Source: Antedon mediterranea
Lineage: Eukaryota > Echinodermata > Crinoidea > Comatulida > Antedonidae
DNA: 64,000 nt
Direction: 5' to 3'
Assembly (NCBI RefSeq): GCF_964355755.1
Contig: NC_092679.1
Location: 7,688,001 to 7,752,000, forward strand
Position 1 is the stretch's first letter, and every line of letters begins with the position of its first letter. Below, in pieces: positions 16,496 to 25,400 of the stretch. Position numbers and translations under genes: made by a program. The notes under the pieces were generated by a model. The model saw only the letters and a program-made list of their open reading frames with translations. It ran no database searches and had not been told where the DNA came from.

Positions 16496-19400
16496 ATGGA
16501 ACATTCAAAATATTCGGTTTCTGATGATATAGATTACAGTGTAAATAATTCAAATAGTTCTATTACTCATTTTGATAAAAGTGTAAGTTGTTATGCTCCG
16601 TTTTGATAGTTAATAACCGGTAAACCTCTGACGTCTAGGGCTAGGCTCTCCTAGCTACTAGTAGAGGCGGCCTGGCTAGCTCTCTCTCTACTGATGTACC
16701 GTAGTAGTCATAGTCATAGTCATATATACTTTATTGTCCATTTAAAAAACAGAAATGTGATTTGAAAACTGGCAAAATACAAAAATATAAAATACAATTT
16801 ACAAAAACACACACAAAAAGTTAAGAGGCTAAAAATTGTTAAAAAAATTAGATAAAAATTATCGGTTACATTTTACCTTTGTACTCTGGAGTTATATAAG
16901 TGTATAGCATTAGCATTAGTAGCTAGACCTGTGTCCGTCTGTTGTTGTTGCGCCAGGTCAGGTCAGGCCTAGGAGTTAGTCCGATTATACCATTATTTTT
17001 TTCCTCCATTGTCATAAAAAAATGGTATTATTACTTTGTTTTTACTTAAAAATGAAAATAATATTAATAATAAATTATTTATAATAATTAATATACATTT
17101 TGTAACACTAACAGACCAGATTTTTTTCATTTATTATATTATAGGACGAGAAAAATGAAGATGAAGTTCCCCTTGTCTCATCATCGTCGGGTCATCATGA
17201 CAACCCGCATAAAACAACGTTTTGGTTTTCTGTTTTTAACTTGATGAATGCTATCTTAGGCAGTGGTATTCTGGGATTGGCTTTTGCAATGGCTTCTTCT
17301 GGAATTATTCTTTTTAGGTTATTTTTTATTTAATTTATTCTTCAAACAATGTTGACAAGTTTAAATATTAAAACATCAATGTGCTTGAAAGATAAAGGTA
17401 AAAAGAGCACATTCTGAACAAGCCATTTATTTATTGGTATAAGATATAAATAAATTGTACTTTATATTAATTTTTCATTTGTTTATTTTTGTAGTCTCAA
17501 CAGCTACTGTCAGTTATTATCTATAATATTATTGTTTTGCCTTCATATTCAGAATAATCTTCCATTGCAATTTTTCTTTGTAGTATGTTGCTCGTTTTGG
17601 TAGCATGCCTAGCAAACTATTCTATTAGTCTTCTACTACGAATGTGTCAAACAACAGGAGTAAAATCTTATGAAGATATAGGCCTGCATGCAATTGGACC
17701 CATAGGCAAGGTAAGTTGTCCAGGTAACTTGGCTAGGAGAGTGTCAGTAGCTATCAAAGAGAAGTAGCGCCAAATACATAAAAACAGTATTAAGCAGTCT
17801 GTTTTGTAGAATTTACTGAGTAAGGGTTAATCATTTTAATGGTTTTAAACATTCTATTTGATTTCAGATTTTGGCAGCAAGTGCAATTATGGCTCAAAAT
17901 ATTGGCTGTGAGTTTTCTCATTAAAATAAAGTACTTTACTAGATTATATGTGTTTGTACTACACATAATTGTAAATAAGTAAATTATTTTTGAATAGTTA
18001 TACATATAAAATAAACAAACTTATTGTCAAAACTTGCGGTTACGTTTTAATTGAAACATTTCTGTATTATTCAGCAATGTCAAGTTATTTATTTATTGTA
18101 AAAGATGAACTACCAAGTATTTTAAGAATGTTACTGGGAGATGAAAATTCACATTCCAAGTAAGTAGATTATGCAATAATATTAGAATATTATTTACTTT
18201 TCTTCACCCTTAACATTTTAAATTCCAAATTAAAAGTTTAAAATTGCATAGTGTAATTAGACCGGGCGCCCGGAAGATTTATTCATGTGAAAAGATACAA
18301 AAGGTTTGATGATGTAGTTAGGTGCGTATTAGGGCGAGATGCAATATTCAACATTGCTGCCGGGTCACAGCCTGTACATAGGGCCTGTGGGGATCATAAC
18401 ATAGGGGGGTGAAACTGCATTTATTCATGTGAAGTGATACAAGGATAAACTTTTTTGGATATCATTCGCAGTGGGCTACTAATGATTACATCACCAATGA
18501 CAGCAACTTTATCCTGTACGGGGCGCCAAACAGCAACATTTTAGGGCCACGCCCAAATGGGTTTATTCATGTGAAGCAATACAAGGTTGAATCTTTTTTT
18601 AATGGCAGCAGTACATATTGGGGATGACAAAAACACCAATGACAGCAACTTTACATAAGCTCAGACAGCAGCCCTAAAGGTTCGCAGTTTCCCCCTATTC
18701 GACTATATACTCGGCACGTATGTCGTCTTATGGCGTTCAGCTGAGTTAGAAATACGTGATACGGACTCGGACTGAAAATAAATACACAGTAGAATGCTAA
18801 AACAATAAATAAAGAGAGCAGTTGTTTTCTGTACCAAATCATCAAACATCAAACTCTTAGGAACTCGCCTAGACTTGCCCCAAGTCTGTATTATCTTTTT
18901 TTTTTATTTATTTGTTTTTATTTCGACCGCGATTTTTGTCTGAAAATACAGACTTGTGAAACACGTATAGAAATCGATTTGCAGACCGCAAACATACGAT
19001 AAGAATGACGTAGGTTATCATACCGTATTTGGCTATATGGGGCGGGCGGTATGTAAATATGGATTTCGAATCAACCAATGATCATTTTGTTTCAAAATGA
19101 AAGAGATCGATTACGTAGGCCTACCAGTGCTTAATGTACGATCGAGACTGTTGAAATATAAAATAGTAATGCCAAGTTGTTTTGTTTATTAATTGTTTAG
19201 TCCTTGGCCTAGGCCTCTTTCGTAGGTCCTACTCAACTCGCACCTATGACCTGCCAAATAAAACGCCAATGAAGTAGGCCTACATACCACCGGCACACAA
19301 CAGGGCTACACCACCACACAGAACAGGACAGGGTCTGGGTGGGAATTAAATCGAAATTATCTCCGCATAATAAATGATCCATTCAATGTTTGATTTGCAG

Positions 19401-22400: not shown

Positions 22401-25400
22401 CAGTCTAATTCACATGAAAACGGTTACTTTTTAAAAATTTAAATTGAGTTAAAAATACAGTAATAGTGTGCAATCGATAGTCTAATCTATACCTTACCAA
22501 TTCTCTAAGTGATTATGTTGAATTTGAACTATTATTTACTTTACTATTATGTTATGTTAAAAAATGTTGCAAATTTAGATTTCGTTGCCTTTTTTCATAT
22601 AGACATATCACTATAGTGTCTAGTGTGTAATTAAAACAATATTTAAATCGAGTTATAATAATAATGTACAATAATCGGTACCGGTGTCGATCATTATGAG
22701 TGTAATTTCTTTAGTTTATCTGAAAAATATTCTTAAATTGTATTATTTTGATCGAAATAATGATTTTGATATAAAATTGATTGTTCAAAATGTGACCCTA
22801 AAATACAAATCTGATGTTGGTTATTTTAAGTGTTTTTGTTGGTGTTATTTATTATTCCAAAATAAAGATATATTTCAATTATAAAATAAAAGTCACTCGT
22901 TATCGTGAATGTGTTTGTATTATCAACATGGTTAATCACGAATGGAGCCTCGGGGATTTGAGCTGCTGTGTACCGGATAAAGTGAAAAAAAAAAACATTT
23001 TTTCAAAAATGATTACACACTTCATGGATAAACCCATTTTGGGTGAGTTCCTAAGAGTTTGATGTTTGATGATTTGGTACAGGAAACAATATGTACTGCT
23101 GCCATTAAAAAAAGATTCAACCTTGTATCGCTTCACATGAATAAACCCATTTGGGCGTGGCCCTAAAATGTTGCTGTTTGGCGCCCCGTACAGGATAAAG
23201 TTGCTGTCATTGGCTACTAATGATATCCAAAAAAGTTTATCCTTGTATCGCTTCACATGAATAAATGCAGTTTTACCCCCCTATGTTATGATCCCCACAG
23301 GCGCTATGCACAGGCTGTGACCCGGCAGCAATGTCGAATATTGCATCTCGCCCTAATACGCACCTAACTACATCATCAAACCTTTTGTATCTTTTCACAT
23401 GAATAAATATTCCGGGCGCCCGGTCTAAATTGGAATAGATTTACAAAAATTGTGTATTTTGCGTTACTGTATTTTAAAACATTTGTAAATTTATTATATA
23501 AAAATGTTTTGTTTCAGCAAATGGTACTTAAATGGAGACTACTTACTACTGCTGGTTGCATTTGCCGTTATTATTCCACTGGCATGCTCTCCAAAGATTG
23601 GATTTCTCGGCTACACCAGTGGCTTCTCAATTCTCTTCATGCTCTTCTTTACCTTTGTAGTAAGTTATACTGTACAAATTGTGATGCGGTTTTTATTAAA
23701 AACATTGGTACTGAGTTGAAATTGAAACTAGAAATGCATTTTTATTTTATTCCACAGGCCTAAAATGAGGGGGTCCCTAATGATCAGCAATTGCTGGATG
23801 GATCACCCTCATTAAATATGGTTTAAAAATTTTTTTTTTTTAATATGCCATTTTAATGTTGGTTTTTCATTTTTAATGTTTTGGTGGGACAATACATCTT
23901 GATTGTAAATACGGAGGATAAAACTATTATTATGTCCAAAAATAAAAATATCAACATCAATATTTTTTTAGAACATATTATTGCAGTAAACAGCATAATT
24001 AATTGTTTTCCTTCATTAATTTCAGATTGTTATAAAAAAATTCATGATTCCATGTCCAGAAGAGTCACCAAATGCTACGTTTAGTGAAGAATTTGAATTC
24101 TATACTAATTCTAATTCATCTACTGACCAATGCAAGGCCAATTATTTTACATTATCTATTCAGGTTGGTTTTCGTTTACGATGTTTGTTTATAATATTTA
24201 TTGCTGTGTCATAGAACAAAACACCAGATGAAACATAGCATAGGGTAAGCCTCTTTGGTGTAATTTATTGATAATATATTTGATAATAAAATGATTAAAA
24301 TAATCTTGTATTGCAGACAGCGTATGTTCTTCCAACCATGGCCTTTTCATTCGTCTGCCACACAGCTGTTCTTCCAATTTACTGTGAACTTTCTAGGTAT
24401 GTTTGATGGTATGTTTGATGGTATGTTTCTAGGTATGTTTGATGGTATGTTTCTAGGTATGTTTGATGGTATGTTTGATGGTATGTTTGATGGTATGTTT
24501 GATGGTATGTTTGATGGTATGTTTCTAGGTATGTTTCTAGGTATGTTTCTAGGTATGTTTGATGGTATGTTTGATGGTATGTTTGATGGTATGTTTGATG
24601 GTATGTTTGATGGTATGTTTGATGGTATGTTTGATGGTATGTTTCTAGGTATGTTTGATGGTATGTTTGATGGTATGTTTCTAGGTATGTTTGATGGTAT
24701 GTTTCTAGGTATGTTTGATGGTATGTTTGATGGTATGTTTCTAGGTATGTTTGATGGTATGTTTCTAGGTATGTTTGATGGTATGTTTGATGGTATGTTT
24801 CTAGGTATGTTTGATGGTATGTTTGATGGTATGTTTGATGGTATGTTTGATGGTATGTTTGATGGTATGTTTGATGGTATGTTTCTAGGTATGTTTGATG
24901 GTATGTTTGATGGTATGTTTCTAGGTATGTTTGATGGTATGTTTCTAGGTATGTTTGATGGTATGTTTCTAGGTATGTTTGATGGTATGTTTCTAGGTAT
25001 GTTTGATGGTATGTTTGATGGTATGTTTCTAGGTATGTTTGATGGTATGTTTGATGGTATGTTTGATGGTATGTTTGATGGTATGTTTGATGGTATGTTT
25101 GATGGTACTGTATGTTTGATGGTATGTTTCTAGGTATGTTTGATGGTATGTTTGATGGTATGTTTGATGGTATGTTTGATGGTATGTTTCTAGGTATGTT
25201 TGATGGTATGTTTGATGGTATGTTTGATGGTATGTTTCTAGGTATGTTTGATGGTATGTTTGATGGTATGTTTGATGGTATGTTTGATGGTATGTTTGAT
25301 GGTATGTTTGATGGTATGTTTGATGGTATGTTTCTAGGTATGTTTGATGGTATGTTTGATGGTATGTTTGATGGTTATCTGATTTTTAAAGCGTATTTTC

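Follow-up and report, generated by a model that had tools for sequence, protein, structure and literature searches.

Two transposons with long inverted arms

The window, i.e. the whole stretch of 64,000 nucleotides analysed here (C10:7688001-7752000), harbors two elements with long inverted arms. The 354-Mb assembly was searched for copies and relatives of both; copy numbers are lower bounds. Element 1 (18258-23427) is a non-autonomous transposon with long TIRs that matches the nuclease lineage of Academ. It is delimited by complete relatives and by TAGACCGGGCGCCCGG termini at 18258 (plus strand) and 23407-23427 (minus strand), and comparison of the flanks identifies the target-site duplication (TSD) AAT (left 18255-18257, right 23428-23430). 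Alignment of the arms yields a left arm of 2.48 kb (18258-20733, plus strand), split by a nested element of 951 bp (18870-19820, included in the length), and a right arm of 1.95 kb (21479-23427, minus strand) containing a tandem array of ~118-138-bp units (21730-22271). Compared piece by piece, the arms are 87-99% complementary. The loop of 745 bp contains an ORF (20897-21334, plus strand) corresponding to the last ~140 codons of a transposase-nuclease gene, namely the end of a FEN-like domain with the motifs LPPC..LRANY..GW and an acidic tail. Its identity to the C-terminal end of the full-length protein encoded by a relative, L038, is 51%.

Element 2 (60442-64000; positions 942-4761 of locus L029) is a palindromic transposon that runs on to 64261, 261 bp past the window, and is flanked by the TSD CTA (60439-60441 and 64262-64264). 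Its true start is 60442 and not, as originally predicted, 60703. The left arm (60442-62122, minus strand, 1.68 kb) is an inverted copy of the 3' half and includes the end of the gene as a minus-strand ORF (61113-61730). The loop (62123-62608, plus strand, 486 bp) holds a portion of the gene that precedes the duplication and is present in a single copy, and the right arm (62609-64261, within the window to 64000, plus strand, 1.65 kb) comprises the 3' half and 3' end of the gene with the stop codon TAA at 63617-63619. Both arms are 95.7% alike over 1683 bp. The plus-strand gene part (62286-63619) is interrupted by stops; fragments of a FEN/EXO1-like nuclease domain (VTDAY..SIK..ER..RG, TGND) are found at 62286-63376 (plus strand), split by stops and a frameshift. 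The arm alignments bear out the original prediction of two elements with different arm sequences and inverted arms of more than 1 kb, and the 3' end of one protein family indeed lies within the element-1 loop and in each of the two arms of element 2.

The window contains further repeats. A satellite-like tandem array with a 186-bp unit (~37 copies, 93% alike) extends over 35932-42762, and a 12-bp minisatellite (GGTATGTTTGAT, ~81 copies) with several open frames is located at 24396-25375. Reverse-transcriptase-like ORFs of 286 and 450 aa (13093-15425, minus strand) constitute, by eye, a putative non-LTR retrotransposon remnant. A G-rich 217-bp tandem repeat (59704-60223) stops about 220 bp before element 2.

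Genomic copies define the termini as TAGACCGGGCGCCCGG for family 1 (element 1) and TAGACTAGGCTATGAATGAGG for family 2 (element 2); despite different arms, both elements have the end motif TAGAC...GTCTA in common. A perfect 3-bp TSD is found in 10 of 10 family-2 copies and in all eight copies or close relatives of family 1 with intact ends, the full-length relative L038 among them. Besides element 1, seven complete copies of family 1 or close relatives carry a 3-bp TSD. In two more copies, each with a damaged end, the left and right flanking 3 bp agree by eye: TTT/TTT (L075) and TAT/TAT (L068/L069). The 30-bp terminus of element 1 matches 112 genomic sites with at most 2 mismatches, compared to none for the reversed control. 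Given these matches and the perfect TSDs, a chance origin is excluded: elements 1 and 2 are mobile DNA transposons. The comparison of ends and target duplications among copies, suggested together with the original prediction, thus yielded shared TAGAC ends and 3-bp TSDs.

The element nested in the left arm of element 1 is a MITE of a helicase-bearing (AcademH-like) lineage (TAGACTTGCC...CCCAGACTA), with ends TAGACT...AGACTA and the 9-bp TSD GAACTCGCC (18861-18869 and 19821-19829). All nine other copies likewise show a 9-bp TSD, and the family is large (2252 first-look candidates). An element of 8.6 kb (L097, C5:20779022-20787618) has the same TAGACT..AGACTA ends and the 9-bp TSD GGTGACCGC, and encodes a DUF6589 protein (73 bits) as well as a Helicase_C domain (58.6 bits). 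It is the apparent parent of the nested MITE. The terminal ~16-19 bp directly after TAG are near-palindromes in family 1 (at 18258, CCGGGCGCCCGG), in the relative L034 (TCTGGGAGCCCAGA), and in the MITE (at 18870, AGACTTGCCCCAAGTCT), possibly a recognition feature common to both Academ lineages.

Full-length relatives and the fused protein

In full-length relatives, a single protein of ~1360-1555 residues is encoded. A genome search using the gene fragments returned long open copies of 1555 aa (L034), 1524 aa (L035), 1247 aa (L036), and 1360 aa (L037), as well as L038, in which the gene is present in three open pieces. L038 encodes the whole protein between TIRs of ~565 bp whose start, TAGACCGGGCGCCCAGAAGATTTATTCATG, is nearly that of element 1, and has the TSD CAT. 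In L034, TIRs of ~0.9 kb flank a single ORF of 1555 codons; the flanking nucleotides are CGA and TTG, hence no TSD. L037 has an inverted repeat of ~100 bp with a start other than TAGAC, and a search for TIRs at L035 and L036 gave none that were convincing. L010/L078 is a decayed, longer version of the family-1 gene itself. For family 2, no autonomous copy was found in the genome; the nearest coding relative, L049, aligns at 43% along a portion of the gene and has no clear TIR.

The C-terminal domain was modelled from an alignment of 16 sequences of this genome (pLDDT 89, pTM 0.90). A Foldseek search with this model gave FEN1/EXO1/Rad2/XRN2-type nucleases as all of the best 13 matches. VIA-align placed EXO1 first (Z 16.2, 267 residues, 4.0 A), and also matched FEN1 (14.4), XPG (13.1), and GEN1 (12.0); the 50 matches listed are all FEN1/EXO1/XPG/Rad2/GEN1/XRN/phage 5'-nuclease chains with Z between 11.6 and 16.2. 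EXO1 also ranks first in a profile search of the PDB (E 0.33), with an alignment by HMMER that covers the D..SxKxxERxRR and GCDY stretches. A Pfam search with the window fragments gave nothing useful. Since phmmer with the full-length protein found no match in the PDB, the FEN relationship rests on the fold search and, weakly, on the profile. Seven acidic residues (D64, D105, E211, D213, D233, D235, and D296 in L038 domain numbering) are invariant in the full-length lineages and wherever else they are aligned, with the exception of the last site in one palindromic copy. Their order is as expected of FEN1/EXO1, and the residue-by-residue match, as read from the motifs with the help of the HMMER alignment to EXO1, would assign them to the same catalytic positions. 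The proposed likeness to FEN1/XPG nucleases is hence supported by the predicted fold (Z 13-16) together with these seven residues, and the profile and structure searches advised for this purpose point to EXO1 and to the FEN1/EXO1/XPG fold.

The transposase core is less certain than the nuclease domain. DUF6589 scores are near the cut-off for most copies, and just above it in L036 (28.3 versus 27 bits) and in one more lineage (C3:23175763). None of the papers searched mentions DUF6589. For a model of the core (880 residues, pLDDT 69), the leading structural matches (Z 5.5-7.7) are Hermes (7.7), Transib (6.7), ISCth4 (6.7), and RAG1 (5.9), each of them a DDE enzyme, where Z below 8 is weak and no proof. 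D291/D294, D459, and E708 follow an RNase H-like order. The DUF6589 scores, the model, and the residue order weakly suggest a DDE-transposase-like core of the DUF6589 class.

A nuclease that matches EXO1/FEN1/XPG in its fold might have been a host gene acquired by chance. The full-length copies refute this, and we consider its probability negligible: divergent lineages (29-36% identity) carry the nuclease domain and the transposase core within a single ORF, and TIRs flank this fused gene in L034 and L038.

Origin of the palindrome and fate of the gene end

The palindrome of element 2 is an inverted duplication of the 3' half of an element. L077, a simple non-palindromic derivative with decayed ends, has TIRs of ~400 bp and the 3' half of the gene on one side only. 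It follows that the normal TIR is short, and that the inner ~1.2 kb of the palindrome arm are recruited sequence from the 3' half of the gene. Arms were compared among eight family-2 copies, oriented by the loop gene. Between copies, left arms differ from left arms by 0.4-1.9% and right arms from right arms by 0.5-1.9%, while the arms within one copy differ by 2.0-3.0%. The range for right arms leaves out that of L074 (4.8-5.7% from other right arms), whose divergence is taken to be an alignment artefact of an indel. As the arms cluster by side, a single duplication event was followed by divergence of the arms and then by copying of the palindrome as a whole. The family-2 palindrome therefore has a single origin and subsequently spread; 34 of 45 gene-end loci (a lower bound) are divergent pairs.

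Element 1 differs in make. It is a derivative produced by internal deletion, and its long TIRs contain internal repeats; element 1 and the sister derivatives examined keep only the last ~190 codons of the gene, in the loop. The original prediction of one transposon lineage whose derivatives turn palindromic while keeping the 3' end of the gene thus holds with respect to the lineage (TAGAC ends, 3-bp TSD, one protein family) and the kept gene end. A recurrent palindromic fate was not borne out: of the two elements, element 2 alone represents an inverted duplication of the 3' half, and this was formed once.

For defective copies of Galileo, template switching in gap repair has been proposed as the mechanism (PMC4168063). 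With Galileo as precedent (PMC4168063), ordinary abortive gap repair with template switching would explain the palindrome of element 2 as well. It has alternatively to be considered that the transposase and its FEN1-like nuclease actively make palindromes, such that hairpin ends are left or mis-opened and replicated into giant inverted repeats as a regular product of the lineage. Such a role could be expected of a predicted FEN1/EXO1-fold nuclease next to a core that resembles the hairpin-forming transposases Hermes, Transib, and RAG1. The family-2 palindrome, however, arose once, neither family 1 nor the full-length copies form palindromes of gene sequence, and long TIRs with recruitment of an ORF end are known from Galileo, a member of the P superfamily (PMC4168063). 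We therefore regard active palindrome formation as decidedly unlikely; the origin by gap repair needs no role of the nuclease, and the original suggestion that such an enzyme could help to form or resolve hairpin ends found no support.

Whether the kept gene end serves a function can be judged from its changes. ORFs of 205-260 codons are open in many left arms of family 2, and all family-1 derivatives examined keep the same last ~190 codons, as might be expected if the 3' end in the arms of element 2 and in the loop of element 1 were retained for the function of its product. Nevertheless, the left-arm ORF of 10 copies shows 4 synonymous and 13 nonsynonymous changes, consistent with neutrality (26% synonymous expected, p = 1.0), and stops interrupt a large number of right arms, making retention for function very unlikely. 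Because of the neutral proportion of changes and the stops in the right arms, the kept gene end is considered passenger sequence: the arm ORF evolves neutrally and is baggage. With one origin and at least 34 loci, the palindrome of about 3.8 kb shows that transposition can make good use of a substrate that is itself a giant, near-perfect palindrome.

Proposed model and comparison with known systems

Elements 1 and 2 are very probably non-autonomous cut-and-paste AcademX transposons derived in the following way. A full-length element of this kind is about 7-8 kb in size; its TIRs measure ~0.4-0.9 kb and start with TAGAC or TAGTC, and its single protein would consist of a Cys-rich N-terminus, a DDE core (DUF6589 class), and a C-terminal FEN1/EXO1-like nuclease. 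The transposase would bind the TIRs, excise the element, and insert it with 3-bp staggered cuts, the 3-bp TSD itself being observed. Element 1 would represent a copy of which the last ~190 codons remain, flanked by TIRs that internal repeats have enlarged. In element 2, the 3' half in inverted orientation would have taken the place of the 5' part, most likely through a template switch in post-excision gap repair; with both ends intact, the palindrome, present at 34 or more loci, could be moved in trans by the transposase of full-length copies. The task of the nuclease is presumably the trimming of flaps, hairpins, or branched ends that arise from excision or gap repair. Donor flanks are left as hairpins by Hermes, Transib, and RAG, so that an enzyme cutting hairpins or flaps would be a reasonable partner for such a transposase. 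A more far-reaching and rather improbable proposal is that the transposon brings along a FEN1-type nuclease for opening hairpins or flaps, joined to a RAG/Hermes-like transposase so that one protein also does an Artemis-like job, that the accessory enzyme determines the stagger (for identical TAGAC ends, 3 bp in the case of the nuclease and 9 bp in that of the helicase), and that its errors yield transposable giant palindromes.

Academ transposons have been split into AcademX, with a nuclease and a TSD of 3-4 bp, and AcademH, with a helicase and a TSD of 9-10 bp (PMC10045372); the AcademX lineage is credited to Kapitonov & Jurka 2010 and Kojima 2020 (as cited in PMC10045372). The copies of both families, including L038, show a TSD of 3 bp (10 of 10 and 8 of 8; L034 has none), and an XPG/FEN1-type nuclease is encoded in the same element. 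A helicase gene and a 9-bp TSD are found in L097, and a 9-bp TSD in the MITE. Elements 1 and 2 are filed under AcademX because the kind with nuclease and 3-bp TSD and the kind with helicase and 9-bp TSD share the TAGAC start in one genome. The assignment is based on the published description of the lineage. The initial guess of an Academ relationship is supported by the DDE-like core with nuclease, the 3-bp TSD, and the helicase-bearing sister lineage with its 9-bp TSD. The near cut-off DUF6589 scores of most copies, and a comparison with Academ that is by description only, would also be compatible with an undescribed superfamily separate from Academ. This is unlikely, as the DDE-like core, the XPG-type nuclease, and the 3-bp TSD match the published split, and as a lineage with DUF6589 and a helicase, a 9-bp TSD, and identical TAGAC ends coexists in the genome.

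Among known systems, Galileo/Foldback-type elements have long, internally repeated TIRs, and some copies have both TIRs extended by the terminal part of the transposase ORF (PMC4168063, PMC3573991). Unlike the elements described here, Galileo has a P-superfamily transposase and a TSD of 7-8 bp, and the portions of these papers considered here report no FEN-like nuclease. The 3-bp TSD of elements 1 and 2 speaks against membership in the P superfamily. The nuclease domain resembles FEN1, EXO1, XPG, and GEN1 in its predicted fold and in the order of the seven catalytic acids, but differs by an identity of 10-15%, a longer gap between the second and third acid, and the fusion to a transposase. AcademX combines a DDE transposase and an XPG-type nuclease in one element with a 3-bp TSD, as does the lineage of elements 1 and 2 with its putative DDE-like core; palindromic derivatives that carry the end of the gene in each arm were not found in the AcademX papers covered. 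Because its nuclease-type and helicase-type Academ elements share a terminal motif yet have TSDs of 3 and 9 bp, respectively, this genome is a good place to ask for the role of the accessory enzyme in transposition. AcademH, represented in the same genome by L097 and the nested MITE, is like the lineage of elements 1 and 2 in its TAGAC termini and, as far as the near cut-off scores of the latter show, in its DUF6589-class transposase, and differs in having a helicase and a 9-bp TSD, whereas the lineage of elements 1 and 2 has a nuclease and a 3-bp TSD.
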